In this document: in pieces, positions 31,258 to 56,399 of the stretch
Layout: every line of letters starts with the position of its first letter
Position numbering within the stretch: the first letter of the stretch is position 1
Source of the DNA: Auriscalpium vulgare
Taxonomy: Eukaryota > Basidiomycota > Agaricomycetes > Russulales > Auriscalpiaceae
Length of the DNA: 64,000 nt
Reading direction: 5' to 3'
Assembly (NCBI GenBank): GCA_019915015.1
Contig: JAHBBC010000023.1
Location: 620,001 to 684,000 of the forward strand
Position numbers and translations under genes: made by a program
Notes under the pieces: model-generated
The model's database searches: none
What the model was told of the DNA's origin: nothing
Seen by the model: the letters and a program-made list of their open reading frames with translations, nothing else

Positions 31258-31708
31258 CGTCGAGCTTCGAGCATCAGTACTAGTATCCTCATATACCATT
31301 AAAATCTTAGATGTGAAGTGCCCGCGCCGTATGGCGCTGGGAGTTGGCCACGTAGTTTTATCGGGATAGCGCTGTAAATATAAGCGACGATTTCCGGACG
31401 CTACTGCTCACACAGACAACAACACCGCACTGTGGTTCATCGCGGAAACTTTGCAGCCGACCCTCCAGTACATTCAGACCTTCGCTGGCAAGGTTTGATG
31501 AATTGCGATTCTTTCTGAAAGGTTGTGAATGCGCTCGGGTAGCCGAGCACAATATTAAAAACGCGACTCTGGTGCTCTCTGGTGACTCCCACAAATTGGA
31601 TGCAACGGGGTATTCGTGTAAAAGTGTTACATGTCCCATCCCTTTCCTCGCCCTTTTGTCATTTGGGCATGAAAAGATCGGCACAAGCCGCATGTAATTC
31701 AAATTATT

Positions 31709-31794
31709 TGGACGAAGTGGGGATTGAACCCACGACCTCATGCAACTTACATCAGATGTGCGAAGCAAGCGCGCTACCACTGTGCCATCCGCCC
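31709..31794 (-). tRNA. tRNA-Ala (CGC) with 14-nt intron
   Basis: Reverse strand: acceptor GGGCGGA pairs with TTCGTCC plus discriminator A. The third pair is G3-U70, the alanine identity element. The D-arm (GCAC..AGTGGTA..GCGC) and T-arm GTGGG-TTCAATC-CCCAC are perfect enough. The anticodon loop reads TT-CGC-A, then an intron of about 14 nt (CATCTGATGTAAGT) in the canonical position after base 37, then T-GCATG. The anticodon stem has one T-T mismatch. It lies between MFS copies 2 and 3, at a breakpoint of the inverted duplication. Confidence 0.85.
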
Positions 31795-32272
31795 ATGTGA
31801 CATGGAAACACCCAGCGTGACACAGACTCCTGGCCTTAGTCCTTTTTGAAATTCCTCGAGATGGCCGATTACAGTATAGTACATATTGTGCACATCTTCG
31901 TGGTATCAGACAAGTCGCAGTCCATCAGCTTGTCCACAGGCCCAACGCCCTCCGGAATGTCCGCCTTGCCTCAGCCGTTTGCTCATCACTCTACCGCGTG
32001 CTCAAACAAAGCCGCCGCCTCCGCTGCAAGTGAGTCTAGGCACACTCGCAGAGTGCGACACATACCGCCGAAGGCGTTGGACAAGGGTATAGTCTGTTTG
32101 GTTGAAGCCAGCAATTGCTTCAAGTTCGCAGAATTGAGCAGTCCTCGAGTCCTCGCTGCAGCGTGTGATCAGCATTGCGACAACATGATACAGATCGTGA
32201 CCCTCGGGATCAATGCATTGATATCATATGTGAAGCTCAGCAATTAGGGTATACGTAGAGTTGGTGTGGTAT

Positions 32273-43993: not shown

Positions 43994-44491
43994 TTCGCCT
44001 GGCACAACCGCCTTGCCAATGCCACAGGCCCATGATCATGCCACCAACTCTCCAAATGTACCCTCCCCGTTGATAGCGGCGGCAGCACAAACTGAAGCCG
44101 TACGTTCGAAATTCCAACAAATTGAGCAGCGACTCGGAAGTCTGACAGTTTGCGGGCTCATGCAGTTGCACAAACAAGCTGACACGACTGGGATGAGTTC
44201 GCCCGCGGCCTTGCTCAGCACGCCCTTCTGCCTAGGATGCTGCGTGCGACAATGCAGTCAGGAGGGCAGAAGGCGTCTCTGGGTGTTGGTCCCAGGCATC
44301 GTAGTCATCGGGCCGACGAGAGATGCGTGTGCTCGGACTTGCTGGCCGCGGACTACTTCGAAAACCAGATACTATTCGGATTGAGCCGATTGTGAAGGAA
44401 CGTGGGTATCGTAGTAAGTATCTAACACAATATTTCCCAGCCAACATTGGCATAGAATGAAGAATAAAACTGTCGAACTCTCGTCGGCGGT

Positions 44492-45325
44492 CTACAGCAC
44501 GAGCACCCCCGCCAGGCTAATTGCCACACCCAGCACGCCAACGGCCAACGCACCCGCGCCACGCGCTGACGCGCCGCCCGTGAAGCCAGCCCCGATCCAC
44601 GAGCCGCTCGTGCTCGCAGGCACTTTCACCGTGACGCCAGACGACGTAGACCAGGTGCCGCGGGCGACGCGATCGGAGCACCTGCGGGGATGGAACTCGC
44701 TGTCGCCAGGGGGAAGACGGAGGAGGGCGGGGTGGCGGTCGCGTCTGCGGCGGTGCCAGTACCAAAGGGGACGATGGACTATGAGGGTCACGATGAGCAA
44801 GCGTCGTGTCGGTGGGCTGCGAGGGATGTGACGCACCATCGGCCCGCTGACGGGGAGCTCGCCTTGGGCACAAAAATCCTGTGTATACGCTGCGCTCGAT
44901 TGATTATGAGCAGACGTCGCAGAAAGCAAGTAGAAAGCAAGGGCCCGGTGCACGCACCGTCAAGCGCGGCGTTCTCCTCCGCAGAGTCGGACCCGTAGGC
45001 GCACCCGTAGCAGCTCTTCAACCCGGCCAAGGTCGAAGCACTGCAGACGCACGCCACAGTGCCTTCACATGCCTGTATTCAGCGCGTTAACATCTGGCTG
45101 CGCTCGTAGCGGCGTAGGAGTGCATACGTCGATCGCGTTGAGAGCGGTCTCGCAAACTGATTGGCACTGCGCGAGGAAACCGGCAGTGCTCGGGTCGAAC
45201 TGGCGCCCCTCCAATGAGCGCGCAGAGAGCGGGGAAAGCAGAGCGGGAAGAGGAAGGGGGTTCGGAGACGCTATCGTCAGGACGGGAAAGACAGTGAATG
45301 AGAGCAGGACGATGAAGGACGCCAT
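44492..45325 (-). pseudogene. Secreted Cys-rich GPI-anchored protein, copy 1 (frameshift near C-terminus)
   Basis: Reverse exons 45325-45128, 45072-44958, 44889-44837, 44778 onward. A signal peptide (MASFIVLLSFTVFPVLTIAS) is followed by a Cys domain (CQSVCETALNAID, ACEGTVACVCSAS, KSCYGCAYG, TQDFCAQGELP), a Ser/Thr/Pro/Ala spacer, and coding for a GPI-attachment tail (GAGALAVGVLGVAISLAGVL) ending at 44492. One base is missing at about 44652-44660 relative to copy 2 (55178-56014), so the frame ends at TGA 44626 and loses the GPI signal. As read, the product would be secreted rather than anchored. Surface proteins of this design are common in basidiomycetes; role unknown. Confidence 0.65.
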
Positions 45326-45389
45326 GGCAGAGAATTTGGAAAGGAAGATTACTTTGGGGCAGAAGCAGTTTTGCTCTTATAGACTGACC

Positions 45390-45860
45390 GTACTGATTCA
45401 TCATCCAGAAATACTCTGTCGTGAGGCATGCGGACAGAGAGCGCGCTGCAGTGATGGACGTCCTGAGAAGAAGAGATTCAGAGGTGTTCTCGACTGTCGC
45501 CCAGGTAAGCCACGGCGGTGATACCTGCACGGCAGAGGAACAACGAAAATGTAGCAAAAGGAAACAAAAGGGATGCAGCAGACGACAAGGCCCCATTCAG
45601 AGGAACATCACCAGTGAGCCGCACCTTAAATGCCAGGATGAGTGGTTGATGGACAGCTGAGGCAATAGAAACACTGGCAGATCCACAGGCGATCAATCGA
45701 TCAAGCCCACAATCACCGCACACCCTGTCAAGGGCTGACAGCCTACTAAGTCGCCTTATTGGCAGCTGCGAAATCAGCCATGTGAGAAGGACCTCGACAT
45801 GGTCTCGGTCCATGGGCGGCAAGGGGAAAATCTGAGCAAAATCTGAGCTTTCTTGCACTC
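45390..45860. other. Upstream region duplicated with 56050-56400
   Basis: Parts of 45410-45740 match 56070-56390 (cores GACTGACCG, ACTCTGTC..TGAGGC, GCAAAAGGAAACAAAAG-like, and CACCCTGTCAGGGGCTGACAG). The whole gene-plus-promoter block of the secreted protein was therefore duplicated. No gene of its own. Confidence 0.6.
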
Positions 45861-46436: not shown

Positions 46437-48290
46437 TCAGAAATCAATCGGAGCTACATCTGCGACTGCATCCGTCGGGAATTCGTCACCGGGAAATAAG
46501 CGGAACTCCACAGCATCCATAATAGCTTCGTCCTCAGCTGTCGACGGTACCAACGTCTGCGCGCGGTCTATAGACGACTGGACACAGACAGTCATGAACT
46601 CTGCGAGAGATCCAAGAGCACCTCGTGTCCGGGCCTGGGGGAACATCAGAATTTGAATGACACAGCAAATCCAGGGCAAATATCTGAATGCTCACCTCCG
46701 TGAGTACCTCGAAATATTGTTCTTTCATGTGAGCCGGAACAGATAGCGGCGGAAACCCGGCCATGGTAAGCGGTATAGACGCCAGCAGTCGCGCAACCCT
46801 TCCATTTCCATCCTGTTATATTCGGATCAGCCAAATCACGGTGAAGAGCGCCAAATGTGAGAACCTCGAATGGATGGCAGACAATGAATTCAGTATGAAT
46901 CCAGCTAGCTATCAGGAACGGTTTGTCGGCATGATCTATCAATAAACGCTATGCTGACCTCAGTGAAGTGACTAGGGAACAGCGACTAAGTCTCACCTCG
47001 AGGTGCAGCAAGATCCCGTTGAGCTGCTCGGCGACCTTGTCAAATGGACAGAATTGGACGAGGGTTCTAGGTTTCTTCCGGATGGCAACATTGGTCTTTG
47101 TACTGGAGCGCAGAACGCCGGGGGCAATGTACTGGTTCAGCTCGCCAGTGAGGCTTACAGAAACATGGCAAGACTTGAGGAGAAGAGTGTGAAGCTGGCA
47201 TAGCCACGGCGTATCGATGCGTATTGGACGCGATCCCGATACCATGTACACCATGCGTAATGCCTCAAAATGTCGTCAGTTCCTCACAGAACATGATCAC
47301 AGCAGAAAACGGACCTCGTGCGTGTCCCGTAGGACATCGATTACCTCTCGTCTGTCACCCATTCGGCTTCCCAGGGAGAAAGACGATATAGCTGAAGCAA
47401 AGAACCCAGTGCGCACCAGGTTCTCGCCCGACTGCAGATACACATTCTCAGTATGACGGACAGCACCGGACAGTTGAAGGCCGACGCACCTGGGAACAGA
47501 TAGAGAAGACACTTTCAAGCAAGTTTGTATCCACACACAATAGTCGGAAATAACGCTGTACAACGGATGTGGGCATGCTGTGCTGCACATTATCCATGCG
47601 CAAGTGGGACCATCTGCCGCGGAGGGAATCCTCTTCTGGTTGACCTGTGACGCCGGCGGAAGTAAAGGGAGTCCAAGACCGCCACTCCTCTTTGTCGGTG
47701 CCAAGGGCCCACATATCAACTGAGACGAGAAGTGTAAGTGGCGATCCCATGCAGAGACGGCGTGACCGACTGTGCTTCTGTTCTCTTTTGAGACATCGAG
47801 ACTGAAAATTGGTCAAGAAGGCGTCGAACACTTGATCAGCACCTAAGCCTATGCAACTTTGAAGCTTCGGCGTTGTCAATTCCGGCTGACTTGCACATCA
47901 TGATACCGATCACTGACCTCTCTGTACAATGCAAGAGCGCCGGTGAATTGACCTCCACAGGCGTAGATATCGCCCACTAGAAGCAGCAAATAGGGACACG
48001 GGAACCGCTGAAGCAGGTTCTCCCAGGTAGAGACGATGTAAGAAGTGTCCCGCTCCGAGCACCAAAGACTAGCCACGTATTCTTCGTAGGCGTCAGGATG
48101 CAGATGAGTCTTGGAAAATGAGCAGCGTTAGAGTGGGTGAGACGTCTGGGGCCAAGATAAGAGTACTACACATGGTCCGTTCGGGGTGTGTTTGGAGAAA
48201 ATGAGGTGCCCGAGGCGAAGATCTGCGATCTCGGTCAGTTTTAGAATCTCACCGGGAACGCGGAAAGAGACGTGTGGCCTCACTGTTGAC
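46437..48290 (-). CDS. Fic-domain protein A (probable AMP transferase)
   Basis: Multi-exon reverse gene. Exons readable from RLGHLIFSKHTPNGPC (about 48205) to TGA 46437; the start codon is unresolved (no ATG in frame before it). The N-terminal part looks TPR-like (TWENLLQRFPCPYLLLLVGD, FTGALALYRE). It is followed by LLCVDTNLLESVF, matching the Fic inhibitory motif (S/T)xxxE(G/N) but with Ser in the last place, then the Fic core. HPFE (46876-46865) is cut by an intron from DGNGRVARLLASIP (46812 on), giving a full HPFx(D/E)GNGRxxR. Fic enzymes transfer AMP from ATP to hydroxyl side chains; the TPR-Fic layout recalls FICD/HYPE. Head-to-head with copy B. Catalytic motif certain; substrate unknown. 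Confidence 0.8.
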
Positions 48291-48354
48291 TATCATCGTC
48301 AAGGTGTTCCGAGACTAAGGTAGATTGGCTTAGTCTGGGCTGAAGGGGGTGGAC

Positions 48355-50351
48355 ATGACTGCATGTGGGCTTGTTCATTCGCACTGGCAGTTCAACTCGC
48401 GTCACGCGCGCGGCGTCACCGGATTGCGTCACCACCGCTCACCGTCGCTGGTCACGGTCACACAAAAGGCTCTTGAAACCTCCGGCGAGTCCCTCAGTTC
48501 TGCTCGACGTCCCGGACCACCATCAGGATGCCTTCCGACTTACACTTTGAGTTGTTTAGGTGCGCTCTATACGACTCAGATGGACCATGTGTAAGTGCTG
48601 TAATCCGTATACCTGAGTCAGTCACTCATCTCATATTATCATCAGGGCCAGTTGCCCGCTTCAATGAGCTACAGTGATCGTCGCGAGTTCAGGTTGTCGA
48701 CCAACCGTGTATAAACCCGTCCCGATGCAGCCCTAAGGATATGGCAAGAAATCCTGAGTTCTGACCGCTCGCCCTTCCTGCTGGTACGGATTGGTGACGC
48801 CTGGGCGCGATTCGGCTATCCCTTCTGGGCGTTAGGCTTCTACGAGCAAGTTAGTGACCTAGTGCCTGGTTTATGCCATTAAATGTGCGGGCAGCGACTC
48901 ACCTTGATCCAGGCTCAGTCACTAATGGGCGTAGGGACTGATCTTGTGTTCGACGATTTTCTCGGACGATTCAGATCGAAGGCCGCCGCCGACGAAAGTA
49001 GCCAGCGTGCGTCTGTCTCCCCGCCACAGGAAATCCCCCGGCATTGATATATCCAAAACAGGGATACTCTGGTGCTCAGGGAAAATATACCGAAGATGGA
49101 AAGCAACATCAAGCTATCCTGTGTCAAATGGGTCCGATTCCGGAGACCCGAGTCTCCGCGAACCCTTGCCGTCCATGCCCGTCGCAAGCGGAAACACGCC
49201 CGGTCTCGTGGCCGAGAGGTATATGGATGCTACCGTCATCTTTGGACACATGACGGACGGCACAATATCACTATCTAACCCTGTGCGTTATCGTCTACCT
49301 CGCTTATTTTCTGACGTTACTGACCATTGCCAGGTTGTGCAAAAACTGTTAACCTATGGTTGCATAGACGACGCCCTAACTCATGTTTTGCCCGACAGCC
49401 AAATCACAGTCGCGGCGGAGATAGTCGATGTGCTCTGGGGCAATAAAGAGGTAACAGCTTACGGACTTTTAGAGTCGCACATCGCTCACGAGTCATAGGC
49501 TGTCTTTCTCGTTCACAGACAAGTACAAAACGGGCTGCCACTTACAGTGAAATTTCTTTGCGACTTACATTCCGCGTTGGCTCGGGATGTGGCGTTCTCC
49601 GGCGCTGGTGGCGCAGACGCAGTTCACAAGGCTGCTCAACGGGATTGCATCGCTGTTCCTGTCGGCGTTACTCGGACGGCTACAAGGACTAACCTAGTAA
49701 ACTCCAATCGCAAGGGAAAAACCCAGCACTGCCCTTTCGAACTCGTAGACTCCGAACTGGAGACGATTCTCTCCACCTATGATGTGAGCAATCGCATCTT
49801 ACAGCGTACCACGTTGCGTTGACTGACAACAACAGCTGAGTGCACAGATGATGTCACCGTTCATAGCTTCCAGCTGGCTTTACGCAATGATCGTGAACTG
49901 TGCGCCTTTCGAAGTATGTCGCTCAGCACGTTGCTCTCTTTCGTTTGTTCTCAAAGCTCTAGACCATGAATAGCGCCGTAGCTCGCTTGGTTGCATCCAT
50001 ACCCCTAATTAGCAACTTTTTACCTCCCTTGTGCATTGTTCCACATCTCCGAAACGACCTTGTCCGAGCTTGCGATGAAGTTGGTCGTCCATATTGCTTC
50101 TTGTCCCTGACCTGTCTGACCACGTCATAGGCAATCGCCAGCGCACGATACGCGTCACTGGCTCGACTGTTCCGCACCAGCTGTATAGACGCACTGAAAG
50201 TTGTCAATCAGCTCCCACCGCCCATATACAACGGCTGGGAATGTTCGTTCTGCATCTAGGCCACCTAATGCATTGACTAATGATGACATTCGAACAGTCG
50301 CCTTCCCGGACTTCCCCCATCCTACCTTCAGCGAACGGTGGTTGATATAGA
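48355..50351 (+). pseudogene. Fic-domain gene B (dead motif, nonsense codon)
   Basis: Near-duplicate of copy C (50713-52655), unit spacing 2358 bp. The TPR-like exon has GTA-TAA (stop 48712-48714) where C reads TTA-TCA. The rest remains readable (LLVRIGDAWARFGYPFWALG, ERYMDATVIFGHMTDGTISL, CIAVPVGVTRTATRTNLV). The Fic motif reads APFE (49903-49914), intron, TMNSAVAR (49973 on): catalytic His to Ala, DGNGR to TMNSA. Intron position inside the motif is conserved. It cannot AMPylate, and as written would be truncated. Confidence 0.8.
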
Positions 50352-50712
50352 AGACGAGCCGCGTTTGCATACATAAACAGCATCCTGAACCCCTTTCGTG
50401 ATCATGGTCGTGGCGTTCTCTTGTCGACGCGCACCCTGCGTAGGTGCTTTAGGTCCTACTGCATTACAACACTGTACTTTCCGCAAGCTTCCCTTCTTTC
50501 CTCGTAGCTTTAATTCTATTTGTTGGTGTTATCGTCCGGACATATCCGGTCGCAGAGAACTAGCTCATTTCTTGACGTCGACGCACATCGGATCTCACTC
50601 ATCCCCTCATTCTGGTCTTCTAGCACTTGCGATTCACCCAATTCCTTTCGATACTGCCATTTTGAGCCGAGACTTGAGGTGGGCTGGGTTAGTCTGGGCT
50701 GAAGGGGTGGAC

Positions 50713-52655
50713 ATGTCTGCATGTGGGCTTCTTGAAGTTGGTCTATCAACTCGCGTCACGCGCGCGGCGTCACTGGTCACGGTCACACAAAAGGCTCTTG
50801 AGACCTCCGGCGACGTCCCTCAGTTCTGCTCGACGTCCCGGACCACCATCAGGATGCCTTCCGACTTACACTTTGAGCTGTTTAGGTGCGCTCTATACGA
50901 CTCAGATGGACCATGTGTAAGTGCTGTAATCCGTATCCTTGAGTCAGTCACTCATCGCATATTATCATCAGGGCCAGTTGCCCGCTTCGATGAGCTCCAG
51001 TGATCGTCGCGAGTTCAGGTTGTCGACCAACCGTTTATCAACCCGTCCCGATGCAGCCCTAAGGATATGGCAAGAAATCCTGAGTTCTGACCGCTCGCCC
51101 TTCCTGCTGGTACGGATTGGTGACGCCTGGGCGCGATTCGGCTATTCCTTCTGGGCGTTAGGCTTCTACGAGCAAGTTAGTGACCTAGTGCCTGGTTTAT
51201 GCCATTGGTTGTGCGCGCAGCGACTCACCTTGATCCAGGCTCAGTCACTAATGGGCGTAGGGACTGATCTTGTGTTCGACGATTTTCTCGGACGATTCAG
51301 ATCGAAGGCCGCCGCCGACGAAAGCAGCCAGCGTTCGTCTGTCTCCCCGCCATAGGAAATCCACTGACACTGATATATTCAAACCAGGGATACTCTGGTG
51401 CTCAGGGAAAATCTACCGAAGATGGAAAGCAACGTCAAACTATCCTGTGTCAAATGGGTCCGATTCCGGAGACCCGAGTCTTCGTGAGCCATTGCCGTCC
51501 GTGTCCCTCGCAAGCGGAAACACGCCCAGTCTTGTTGCCGAGAGGTATATGGATGCTGCTGTCATCTATGGGCACTTGATGGATGGCACAATATCACTGT
51601 CTAGCCCTGTGCGTTGTCTTCTACCTCGCTTACTTTCTAACGTTGCTGACGATTGCCAGACTGTGGAAGACCTGTTAAACTATGGTTGCAGAGAGGATGC
51701 GCTAATTCATGTTTCACCCGACAGCCAAATTATGGACCGGGCGGAGATAGTTGACGTGCTGTGGGGCAACAAAGAGGTAACAGCTCTACAGACTTCCGAG
51801 TTGCACATAGCTCACAAGTTCTAGGCTCTCTTCCTCCTTCACCGACAAATACAAGATGGGCGGCCACTTTCAATGAAATTTCTCTGCGAATTACATTCCG
51901 TACTGGCACGGGATGTGGCGTTCTCTGGTTCCGGCGGCAAGGCTGCTCAACGGAATTGTATCGCTGTCCCTGTCGGCGTCACTCGAACTGCTACAAGGAC
52001 TAACCTGGTAATCTCTAATCGCAAGGGAAAAACTCAGCACTGCCCTTTCAAACTCGTAGACTCCGAACTCGAAACGATTCTTTCCACCTATGAAGTAAGC
52101 AATCACATCTCACTGTGATCACGTTGACTGACAACAACAGGTGAGCGCGCCGTCGGTGTCACCAGTCATAGCGTCCAGCTGGCTTTACGTGATGCTCGTG
52201 AACTGTGCGCCTTTCGAAGTATGTCACGCAGTATTGTTCTTTTGTTTTTGTTTTCTCAAAGCACTAGACCATGAACGGCGCCGTAGCTCGATTGGTTGCC
52301 TCCGTACCTCTTATCCGAAATCGTCTGCCCCCCTTGTGCATCGCTCCGCAGCTCCGTGGCGACCTTGTTCAGGCTTACGATGAAGTGCGTCTTCTACGTT
52401 GCTGCTCTTCCACTAACTCGTGTGACCGTTTCTCAGGCAATTTCCAGCGGTCGATACGCGTCGCTGGCGCTATTCTTCCGCACCAGCTGTATCGCCTCGC
52501 TCAATGTTGTCGCTAAGCTCGCAGCGCCCGTGTACAATAGCTGGGAATGTTCGTTATGCATCTACACCGCTTCGGCCATCACTAAAGATGACATTCGAAC
52601 AGTTGACTTCCCGGACTTCCGCCATCCTACTTTCCGCGAAAGATGGTTGATATAG
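50713..52655 (+). CDS. Fic-domain protein C (catalytically dead paralog)
   Basis: About nine exons, open throughout. The TPR-like piece (RIWQEILSSDRSPFLLVRIG, WALGFYEQ) leads to VFDDFLGRFRSKAAADE, ERYMDAAVIYGHLMDGTISL, CIAVPVGVTRTATRTNLV, the Fic segment and a tail ending DFRHPTFRERWLI (TAG 52653-52655). The motif reads APFE (52207-52218), intron, TMNGAVARLVASVPL (52268 on): His, Asp, first Gly and Arg are all replaced. The position homologous to D's start (CCATCATGAC) reads CCATTTTGAG at 50661-50670, so the ancestral ATG is lost; ATG 50713 may substitute. Potential pseudoenzyme, or a gene at the start of decay. Confidence 0.7.
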
Positions 52656-53005
52656 AAGAACATAAACAGCGTCCTGAACCCCTTGTGATCGATTGATCGT
52701 TGTTTACCCATACCCTGCGTAGGTGCCTTAGCTTTTGTTCCTACTGTAACATAATCGGATTGGATCTTCTTTCATGCCCTTGTACTTTCCGCGAGCTTCG
52801 TTCTCATGCCCTTCTTCTCTCCTTTCCTCTCCGCGTAGGTTTGATTCTCGTCAATGTGTCGGTGTTCTTGTTGAACAGATCCGGTCGATTTCTGTCGCAT
52901 ACTTAAGGTGGGACTCGCTCACTTCTTGACGTACAACCGTTCTTCGCCTCATTCCAAAAATTCCTCACGCTCGCGATTCACCAGACTCCTTTTGATACTG
53001 CCATC

Positions 53006-54769
53006 ATGACCCTTCCTGTAGTGGGCCACATAGAGCTCTTTCGTCCGGACGATCGACCATCATTGGGGCTTGAGCTCGATGTGAGTGGCGCCAGTCTACC
53101 AGGAGTACATGTGCTTATAGACTCGTGCTTGACTACATAAAGATTTGACACTCCTGGACTCTCCCAGGACGAGGCGACGAAACTATATGAGACCTTTCAG
53201 AAGGCAGGAGAACCCTACCCTGCTGCATTGATCGCCGGGCGTCTGTGGGAAGACATCCTTGAACGTGCTCCTCTTCCGTTTCTCATGTTGCGTGTTGCCG
53301 ACATGCGCAATGTCCTGAACAGCAAGGCGACAGCGCTGAAGCTGTATCGTGAGGTAAATCTGGAGCTGTCAATCAATGTAAGACACCACTCACCGCATCA
53401 GGTCGAGCAAGGCCTCCGGATGCCCCTCCCTCATTTTAGCAATTGGATTCAAGATTTCATAGAGGAGAAAGTCGACCCCATGACCAAGAAATATCGTACG
53501 TGAATGAATGTTTGCGATGGCATTGTGTGCAATTAAGCAACTATTCCGGCGGGTGATTTTTGGGCTGACCGTCATGATGTTCCTGTGGGACAGCGATGGA
53601 GGACGACGGTTCAAGCACCATTGCCCTATGTTCTCATGGACTCAAAAAGGCTCTCAAAGACTTAAGGGTCAAATGGAGTGGCAATATGAAGACATCGAAA
53701 CAGTTTGCCGAGGCATTTTTTAACCTTCACTGCGTCGAGACGAACGTCCTTGAAGGGACTTTCTGGATAGATGCATCAGTAAGTGTTCAATTAGCGTTCA
53801 TTCTTCGTCTCCGAAGTAACTCGTCGCATGTGTCGTGTGACAGGACAGTACTCGCTTGATCAACGTCGGCTTCTTCCGACAGCAATCAGCGGAAATCCTC
53901 CCCGCGCGACTTGACGGTGCTAATAACGTAGGCCAAGTTAAAGATAGAGGCGAGGTCCTTGAGATCCTGAGAGACACATATCGTGTGAGTCCGCAAATCC
54001 GCAGTAACTTGTTTGTCGGTCTCATTGTTTCCCGCTCACAGGCACTAGAAATCGTATTTCAGCTGCTTGCGGAAGATGAGATGAAGCTCGACGTTGATGT
54101 CCTTTGCAGAATGCATCGGGTCCTCATGAAATCTTCACGTCTCCAGCTCTTCATGGTGAGGGGTAATCAACACCTGAAATACACTAATATCGGCGTCACG
54201 CGCCAAACCACTTGTACCAATGTCACCATTGAAGCCGGCAAGAACACTCTGAGACCGATTCGGGTACAGTTCTGTCCGTTCGAACAAGTGGACGCAGAGC
54301 TCAAGAGCCTCTGTGAACGGATCTTGGTTCGTCGTCATCTCCCGACTAGGATTGCCTACTCACGTCACGCTTTTAGACCGAGCTTTCAAATAAGCACGAC
54401 CCCTTCTGTCTTGCTGCTTGGATCAGTGACATGTTCATCTCCATCCATCCTTTTGAGGTGAGCATCTATTTCGTCGATGCCCAGTCGTATTAAGTCATTG
54501 TGTAGGACGGGAATGGCCGTTTGTCTAGGATCATAGCCTCAATCCCCCTGATCAAAGCTGGCTATCCGCCGTTGTGCATACCCTCGACCCAGAAGGCAAC
54601 GTACAACGGTCTTCTAAACACCGTAAGTAAAGTTTCATCGAACACGTGAAATGGTTTTCTGATGGCTCCAAAGGTGCGAGCCGACCGCAATGGTGACTAT
54701 GAGTTACTCGCCAAATGTCTTTTAGAGGCCACCACCAAGTCATTTGACGACTTGATCGCCAAGACTTGA
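53006..54769 (+). CDS. Fic-domain protein D (canonical AMP transferase motif)
   Basis: ATG 53006 (MTLPVVGHIELFRPDDRP). The TPR-like region (GRLWEDILERAPLPFLMLRV, ATALKLYRE) is followed by VETNVLEGTF (about 53737-53763), a perfect (S/T)xxxE(G/N) inhibitory motif. Then come LCRMHRVLMKSSRLQLFM, the RGNQ..YTNIGVTRQTTCTNV flap-like segment, and HPFE (54446-54457), intron 54458-54505, DGNGRLSRIIASIPLIKAGY (54506 on). The last exon has ADRNGDYELLAKCL and stops at 54769. All Fic residues (His, Asp, GNGR, second Arg) are present. The junction of exon 1 and exon 2 (about 53079-53140) does not keep frame with the sites I can see. Expected to be an autoinhibited AMPylase, comparable to FICD. Confidence 0.82.
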
Positions 54770-55177
54770 TGCACGGATAAGATATGTTGATTACGGAGAA
54801 TACATAGCTACAAGTTACGACTCGCAACGGCTGAATACAGAGTCTAAATGGGTTGAGTCATGTCGGCGCACACTGGCAGGCTCCAGGCGATTCCAATCAA
54901 TCAACCCTTGGTCTTGATCCTGATTGAATGGCAACAAAGGGCGGGTGGCGGTCACGTCCGCTGCATTAAAGGTGGATGACTCTGGCTCGTGAGGAGTAAG
55001 CTGGTGCCGTGCAGGCGATCAGAACCTATGCCAGTGCGTTCAAAACCAGACAATTGAATCAGCTTGTATTTTATTCGAACAGTGACTGACCTACGAGGCG
55101 ATGCTAAGTACCGATAAATCTGCCCAGCCAAAATTGGCATGGAATGAAGATCAAACCATCGAACTCTCATCGACGGT
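54770..55177. other. Intergenic region
   Basis: Spacer between Fic D and the reverse secreted-protein copy. No gene seen. Confidence 0.45.
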
Positions 55178-56014
55178 CTACAGCACGAGCACACCCGCCA
55201 GGCTGATTGCCACACCCAGCACACCAACGGCCAACGCACCCGCGCCACACGCTGACGCGCCGCCCGTGAAGCCAGAACCGAGCCCGGAGCCGCCTGTGCT
55301 TGCAGGCACACTCACCGTGACGCCAGACGACTTGGCACCAGGCGCCACGGGCGACGCGACCGGAGCAGGGATCCCTGTCGGCGCGGCGGGGGTCGAATTC
55401 GCTGTCACCGGGGGCAAGGCGACGGAGAGCGGGGTGGCGGTCTCGACTGCGGGGTGGCCGGTGTCTGCGGGGATGCCGCCGGCCTAAGAGGGGTGACGTT
55501 GTGTGAGCAGGTGTCGTGTCTGTGTGTTGTGGGGATGTCACGCACCGTCTTCCCGCTGACGGGGAGCCCGGCTTGGGCGCATTCCTGTGTGAAGTCTGCG
55601 CGCGAATGAGGATGAGTACGGAATATCGCGTAACGCGTGGGGCACGCACCGTCGAGGACGTTCTGGCCATCTTGGCCTTGAGCAGGGTCGAGTCCGACGA
55701 GGCAGCCGACGCAGCTCGTCAGGTCGTCAGCGTTCGAAGCACTGCAGGTGCACGTCGCAGTGGTACACGCCTGCAACCAGCGCGTTGGCATCTGGCTGCG
55801 GCCCTCGGAGGGGCGGAGGAGTACATACGCTGACCGTGATGACGCAAGCTGATTGGCACTGCGTGAGGATACTTAGTGCTCAGGTCGAACTGGCGCCTCT
55901 CCAGTGCGCGCGCAAAAAGCGGGGACGAGCGGGAAAAGGAAGGGGGTTCGGAGAGGCTCAGAGTTACAGGACGGGAAAGACAGCGAATGAGAGCAGGACG
56001 ATGGTGAACACCAT
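55178..56014 (-). pseudogene. Secreted Cys-rich GPI-anchored protein, copy 2 (broken first exon)
   Basis: Paralog of 44492-45325 with the same introns. ATG 56014 gives a hydrophobic signal-like stretch (MVFTIVLLSFAVFPVL) that hits TAA (55974-55976) where copy 1 continues, and more indels follow in exon 1. The later exons are intact: ACTTATCTCSASNADDLTSC, DFTQECAQAGLPVSGKT, a Pro/Ala/Thr spacer (VTANSTPAAPTGIPAP), and the GPI tail GAGALAVGVLGVAISLAGVL to 55178. The damage is complementary to that in copy 1. Confidence 0.7.
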
Positions 56015-56399
56015 AGCGGATGACTGGTTTGGGGCAGAGCCTGCTGTCTTCTTATATGGCTGACCGCGCTGATCCATCCCCAGCGAGTACTCTGTCATGA
56101 GGCGCCGCGTGCGGACAGATGGGCGCTGTATTGATGGACGTCTTGAATGACACACTGATGTTAAGTGCACGGATGAGAGACGTCGGGAATGCAGCAAAAA
56201 GAAGAAACAAAAAGAAATGGCAGCAGACGGCGAGGCCCCATGGGCCAGAGGAACAACACCCTGAGTGAGCCCAGACTGACCCTCGTTTGTAAGGCCGGCA
56301 TGAGTGGTACAGACTGGCATCGGAGCGACCAACAGGCGACCAAGCCCACAACTCACAGGGTCGCACACCCTGTCAGGGGCTGACAGATGGAACCCTGCG

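Follow-up and report, generated by a model that had tools for sequence, protein, structure and literature searches.

In a stretch of 64,000 nucleotides (nt) from the basidiomycete Auriscalpium vulgare (contig JAHBBC010000023.1, positions 620,001 to 684,000; hereafter the window, G000:C23:620001-684000 in the searched genome of 51.6 Mb and 96 contigs), four Fic paralogues, A to D, lie together at positions 46437-54769. Two of them, B and C, have a ruined active-site motif, and our interpretation, which we hold with about even confidence, is that gene C encodes a maintained pseudoenzyme that would bind the neighboring Fic proteins or their targets without AMP transfer, and that gene B is its broken tandem copy. 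An earlier note on this DNA had proposed such a cluster, with complete motifs in A and D and a common wreck, APFETMN(S/G)A, in B and C. Homology-guided splicing (GT-AG introns of 46-98 nt) bears this out, placing A on the minus strand and B, C, and D on the plus strand.

The earlier note had also proposed a search with the Pfam Fic profile (PF02661), for which the curated cut-off is 24 bits; the scan covered A, C, and D. A (45.5 bits; E value, 1.4e-11) and D (50.1 bits; E value, 5.3e-13) exceeded the cut-off, and C fell below it at 13.2 bits (E value, 0.17; profile positions 2-91 of 93). The score of D refers to an earlier model of 402 amino acids, without exon 1 and with eight residues now read as intron, which was used for the D protein search as well. 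B and C are nonetheless Fic-derived, because in a profile-profile comparison the B+C pair matched 22 Fic relatives with 99.9% probability (E value, 1.4e-36) over 408 columns. The TPR-like parts that the note described are weak, with a hit among A, C, and D only in A (E value, 0.2, under the cut-off). After splicing, A and D carry the motif of AMPylating Fic proteins, HxFx(D/E)GN(G/K)RxxR, as given in PMC7842960 and PMC2686095, in the forms HPFE-DGNGRVAR and HPFE-DGNGRLSR, whereas B and C read APFETMN(S/G)AVAR. A and D are thus Fic paralogues with complete active-site motifs and, by motif, predicted AMPylators, although to call the motif sufficient for AMP transfer, as had been done, is too strong.

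The autoinhibited Fic proteins of class II are described in PMC5651007 by a second motif, (S/T)xxxE(G/N), in the helix before the Fic core. D has TNVLEG at this place and A has TNLLES, in which the last position is not G or N, and the aligned positions of the B/C pair read GHLMDG and GHMTDG, so that TxxxE has become GxxxD. In the predicted model of P0001, a homologue folded in place of A-D, the inhibitory motif ends helix 177-194.

Compared with 22 active relatives, C retains only three of nine site positions (N352, G353, and R357), having lost T182, E186, H346, D350, G351, and R354, and is therefore without the conserved catalytic motif, as expected of a pseudoenzyme; the six active paralogues of this genome each have nine of nine. 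The arginine of the Fic motif has a phosphate role. Since the His, Asp, first Gly, and Arg are lost together with the inhibitory Glu, the last of these unremarked by the earlier note, its expectation of dead enzymes gains support, and we predict that both B and C are catalytically dead. Both copies have the same replacements (A, T, M, and A) and retain the same N. Outside the site, C keeps 31 of 51 conserved positions (those common to at least 19 of the 22 relatives), retaining G284, T286, and R287 of the flap as well as the pair C306-P307 and losing D230, T231, Y280, and Y382.

The Fic motif is visible only after splicing because a phase-0 intron, 48-52 nt long in A-D, interrupts it in each of the four genes directly behind the E of HPFE, and an intron lies at the same place in all eight Fic loci examined in this genome (A-D and four others). 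The split motif also accounts for the failure of simpler scans, as a genome scan with a Fic profile gave zero matches and Pfam on ten single-exon frames gave one sub-threshold Fic match. Two alternative gene structures were considered and rejected: (i) the ruined motif as a splicing error, since by eye no nearby alternative acceptor gives DGNGR and the intron position is the same throughout, and (ii) a D gene with a broken first junction, since a CAG-GAC acceptor at 53167/53168 repairs it, and D is complete from the ATG at 53006 once intron 1 is set to 53081-53167.

Whether a dead copy is maintained by selection was judged from the B-C pair alone. B is interrupted by TAA at codon 44 and by TAG at codon 436 and has a single additional base in its last exon, while C is open over 460 codons; substitutions were counted over 429 codon pairs, leaving out the codon-44 stop, all B codons after 435, and five indel codons. 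For exons 4-9 (310 codons), the synonymous divergence (dS) was 0.415 and the nonsynonymous divergence (dN) 0.112, a dN/dS of 0.27 (bootstrap 0.185-0.402), with single exons of this part at 0.15-0.48, exon 8 at 0.15, and the Fic core at 0.195. When the B-C changes were placed neutrally at random 500 times, the ratios ranged from 0.436 to 1.455 with a median of 0.78. Stops averaged 4.3 per run, and 0.4% of the runs were stop-free; no stop was observed in the compared codons of either copy. The exons of B and C differ by one indel of 15 nt (exon 6, in-frame) and one of 1 nt (exon 9), and GT-AG is retained at all eight introns of both. The purifying selection on C that the earlier note had named as its own test is thus found, as a property of the B-C pair, with C open and B now broken. 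This last point contradicts the note's picture of B and C as two equal pseudoenzymes; B is best read as a lost copy.

The history of the pair differs along its length. Identity between B and C is 94-99% in exons 1-3 and introns 1 and 2, compared with 77-90% in exons 4-9 and 65-88% in introns 4-8, and in the alignment of 48250-49220 with 50580-51520, a level of 95-100% gives way to one of 75-90% at about 49020, within intron 3. Given this contrast, the 5′ part was homogenized or later duplicated, and the boundary near 49020 marks a gene conversion or a younger duplication. The codon-44 stop of B lies in this homogenized part and therefore likely arose after homogenization. In contrast, the motif exons 7 and 8 are 17-23% diverged; as the wreck is common to both copies, it is therefore older than the B/C split, and the protein under constraint was already dead. 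At the 68 amino-acid differences between the copies, the active relatives are closer to C in 31 cases and to B in 19, with 18 ties, as expected if B were the freer of the two. The coordinates of these features are collected in Table 1.

Table 1. Fic genes of the cluster and their landmarks (window coordinates)
Feature	Position	Strand	Description
Gene A	46437..48247	-	Fic paralogue; 8 exons modelled; HPFE-DGNGRVAR; inhibitory-type motif TNLLES; modelled exon 1 without start codon
A active-site motif	46789..46876	-	HPFE 46876-46865, 52-nt intron, DGNGRVAR 46812-46789
Gene B	48528..50350	+	Fic copy with predicted dead motif, now broken by stops at codons 44 and 436 and an additional base in exon 9
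B 5′ part	48421..49020	+	95-100% identical to C (100-column windows), introns 1-2 included
B premature stop	48712..48714	+	TAA, codon 44, exon 2
B ruined motif	49902..49986	+	APFE 49902-49913, 49-nt intron, TMNSAVAR 49963-49986
B second premature stop	50257..50259	+	TAG, codon 436, exon 9; more stops downstream in that frame
Gene C	50854..52655	+	Putative Fic pseudoenzyme; 9 exons; 460 aa; zero internal stops; 8/8 introns GT-AG
C former inhibitory motif site	51570..51584	+	T182G ... E186D; reads GHLMD
C flap residues	51975..51986	+	Retained GVTR, residues 284-287
C ruined motif	52207..52291	+	APFE 52207-52218, 49-nt intron, TMNGAVAR 52268-52291
Gene D	53006..54769	+	Fic paralogue; 9 exons; 419 aa; HPFE-DGNGRLSR; inhibitory motif TNVLEG
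D active-site motif	54446..54529	+	HPFE 54446-54457, 48-nt intron, DGNGRLSR 54506-54529

Several observations weigh against C as a maintained pseudoenzyme. The dN/dS values come from two sequences and average the B and C branches, and exons 1-3 hold only three synonymous and three nonsynonymous changes, too few to judge, with exon 2 alone at 0.94. Outside the site, C resembles the two most distant active copies (36/56 conserved positions kept in C14m and 37/58 in C14p) and is less conserved than the other four (41/54 in C16, 44/57 in A, 48/53 in D, and 48/52 in C1), the paralogue counts being leave-one-out, with conservation in at least 18 of 21 rows required. Taken by itself, C does not differ significantly in retention between site positions and the rest (Fisher p 0.16). 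With C as the query, a protein database search that scored 7998 candidates returned no relative at E values up to 10, which leaves conservation across species without an example, and the breakage of B means that the locus tolerates losing one dead copy.

Three other explanations were weighed against this background. The chemistry of C could have changed rather than been lost, with the Fic fold and its new residues A, T, M, and A using another donor, much as the Fido protein AvrB is reported to be a rhamnosyltransferase (PMC10866546) and is described as being without all the residues needed for Fic activity (PMC7842960). The identity of these residues and of the kept N in B and C, together with the low dN/dS of exon 8, is consistent with such a change; we consider it unlikely, as the His, nest Gly, and Arg were lost together, no new charged motif residue took their place, and the 7998 scored candidates offered no C homologue for comparison. 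That B and C are plain pseudogenes, C being just not yet hit by a stop, appears a little more doubtful still. The two stops and extra base of B, the missing catalytic residues and sub-threshold Pfam score of C, and the empty search for its relatives all speak for decay, but the dN/dS of 0.27 lies under the neutral range (0.44-1.46), exons 4-9 are stop-free between the two B lesions in either copy, against 4.3 stops expected, and both the in-frame 15-nt indel and the complete set of GT-AG introns in the two copies are at odds with it. We give the least credit to a structural or scaffolding role for C that has nothing to do with the targets of A and D and for which only the fold and the helical N-terminal part would count: many fold positions are retained, and the alignment of B+C to the family spans almost the entire pair, yet a pure scaffold would not need the GVTR flap signature that C has kept.

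The origin of the pair was examined with a tree of 24 proteins, which took in 16 of the 49 relatives found (the P0001 alignment took in 22 of 49). B/C groups with A (support 86/61; long branches flagged by the program), and A and B/C fall within a group (100/99) with two loci on contig C14, one on C16, and P0037; D belongs, with P0001 and the C1 locus, to the other, larger fungal branch. Given these placements, the cluster seems to mix two Fic branches instead of being a simple one-parent array. The suggestion that A and D are the active parents of B and C is consequently not borne out, B/C lying only weakly with A and D in another branch. A stretch of 43 nt up to the D start codon (52970-53012) is 81% identical to 50626-50668 upstream of C, a trace of a common D/C 5′ flank.

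Elsewhere in the genome, no further copy of the B/C type was found, matches outside the window (E values up to 0.1) being confined to C1, C14 (two), and C16; these counts are lower bounds. The genome thus has at least eight Fic loci, and the four outside the cluster keep the H and DGNGR. On C14, L055 (G000:C14:722885-726259) comprises two divergent Fic genes with matched parts about 2.2 kb apart, both with HPFE-DGNGR, and the first motif halves vary at L056 (G000:C16:969301-969534), with HAFE-DGNGR, and L054 (G000:C1:2825542-2827007), with HPYE-DGNGR. From hand-joined exons, the product of the C1 gene shares 95% identity over 436 columns with a protein named Auriscalpium vulgare. The search with D returned 39 relatives at E values of 3.6e-37 or better, mostly named from mushrooms; these Agaricomycete fido-domain proteins (P0001-P0039), of which P0001, named Auriscalpium vulgare, is 42% identical to D, keep HPFE(D/N)GNGR in all 39 cases, and the B/C motif occurs in none. 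Dead relatives are under-sampled here because the bait was an active Fic. A mixed-profile search (7998 candidates scored) gave one match, P0049, with HPFDDGNGR, and no dead relative. Fic matches also come in pairs within one species, on contigs of equal length (P0006/P0011 in Pholiota molesta and P0025/P0026 in Agrocybe pediades), which suggests that multi-copy Fic loci recur in mushrooms.

Around the cluster, two paralogous stretches, 44436-45620 and 55123-56271, lie in the same orientation 10.7 kb apart and are 74% identical at the DNA level over 1077 columns, with a further block of 106 columns. Their minus-strand frames look as if they may encode a secreted protein with a tail resembling a glycosylphosphatidylinositol anchor signal; a Pfam scan of one hand-joined translation of a flanking gene returned no family. 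The window also carries a tRNA-Arg (TCG) at 31708-31795 on the minus strand (ARAGORN).

If C is a maintained pseudoenzyme, the locus could have arisen as follows: (i) an active Fic gene was duplicated; (ii) in one copy, catalysis and autoinhibition would have disappeared, with the fold and the flap for docking a target strand preserved; (iii) this dead copy would have been duplicated again into B and C, both kept under selection; (iv) exons 1-3 of the pair may then have been homogenized; and (v) B would later have been knocked out, with C remaining. According to PMC8373988, the substrate strand of FICD is paired by the flap, AMPylation is gated by Glu234, which also aligns the water needed for deAMPylation, and the putative general acid is His363; the acidic residue of the Fic motif is stated to hold Mg (PMC7842960). 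As C is without equivalents of these functional residues, it is predicted to have lost AMPylation and deAMPylation alike, with the flap signature remaining. FICD H363A, which carries the His-to-Ala change also seen in C, is reported to hold AMPylated BiP as a trap, and FICD activity to depend on the monomer-dimer state (PMC6826200). C additionally lacks Gly351 and Arg354, and competition for the unmodified target, or mixed dimers, is therefore favored over a trap for the AMP product; a tight product trap of the H363A kind is less likely for C. C would be made as a protein that is unable to bind ATP or catalyze and that acts by competition or in mixed dimers; the regulator or decoy role raised by the earlier note is likewise an inference.

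Precedents exist in known systems, each with differences. Bartonella BepC acts through its Fic domain non-catalytically, by binding GEF-H1, even as a quadruple active-site mutant, keeping its cellular function with the site changed to AxFxAGNGAxxA, as reported in PMC7842960; its natural motif is nearly intact (HxFxKGNGRxxR), while the wreck in C is natural, larger, fungal, and located beside canonical siblings. In Campylobacter fetus, canonical and degenerate Fic genes also occur at one locus, and Fic1 binds and counteracts Fic2; in the account of PMC5651007, however, only the second Gly and the final Arg of Fic2 are reported as changed and Fic2 is itself toxic, whereas B and C have lost the H, the D, and the first G and R of GNGR. 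Together with the FICD trap and dimer, these cases favor target or sibling binding without chemistry, by analogy, as what C would do. AvrB likewise has a Fido fold without the Fic motif, but it is a bacterial effector for which rhamnosyltransferase activity is reported (PMC10866546); for C such an activity would be hypothetical. From the class II eukaryotic proteins, human FICD/HYPE and Caenorhabditis elegans FIC-1, B and C differ in being without the inhibitory Thr/Glu and the catalytic residues. The predicted P0001 model aligns with FICD only from about residue 156 on, its N-terminal helical part being unmatched, and longer Foldseek alignments of the two had root-mean-square deviations near 19-20 Å.

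A bolder version, possible but in our estimate improbable, would make C a eukaryotic anti-Fic that shed catalysis and autoinhibition together and competes or mixed-dimerizes with the active Fic proteins of the cluster, so that the ratio of live to dead protein would set AMPylation. Non-catalytic Fic function is already known, having been reported for a bacterial effector (PMC7842960). What appears to be new is a natural Fic protein, predicted to be disabled in both catalysis and autoinhibition and seemingly retained by selection in a fungus next to canonical siblings; among the matches listed from the open-licence literature, neither a fungal Fic pseudoenzyme nor a study of fungal Fic genes was described. 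If this interpretation is true, the locus would be a natural test of whether a dedicated inactive partner can tune eukaryotic AMPylation, with an open C and a broken B as a built-in comparison, and it brings into view the fungal Fic family, of which this genome has eight or more loci.
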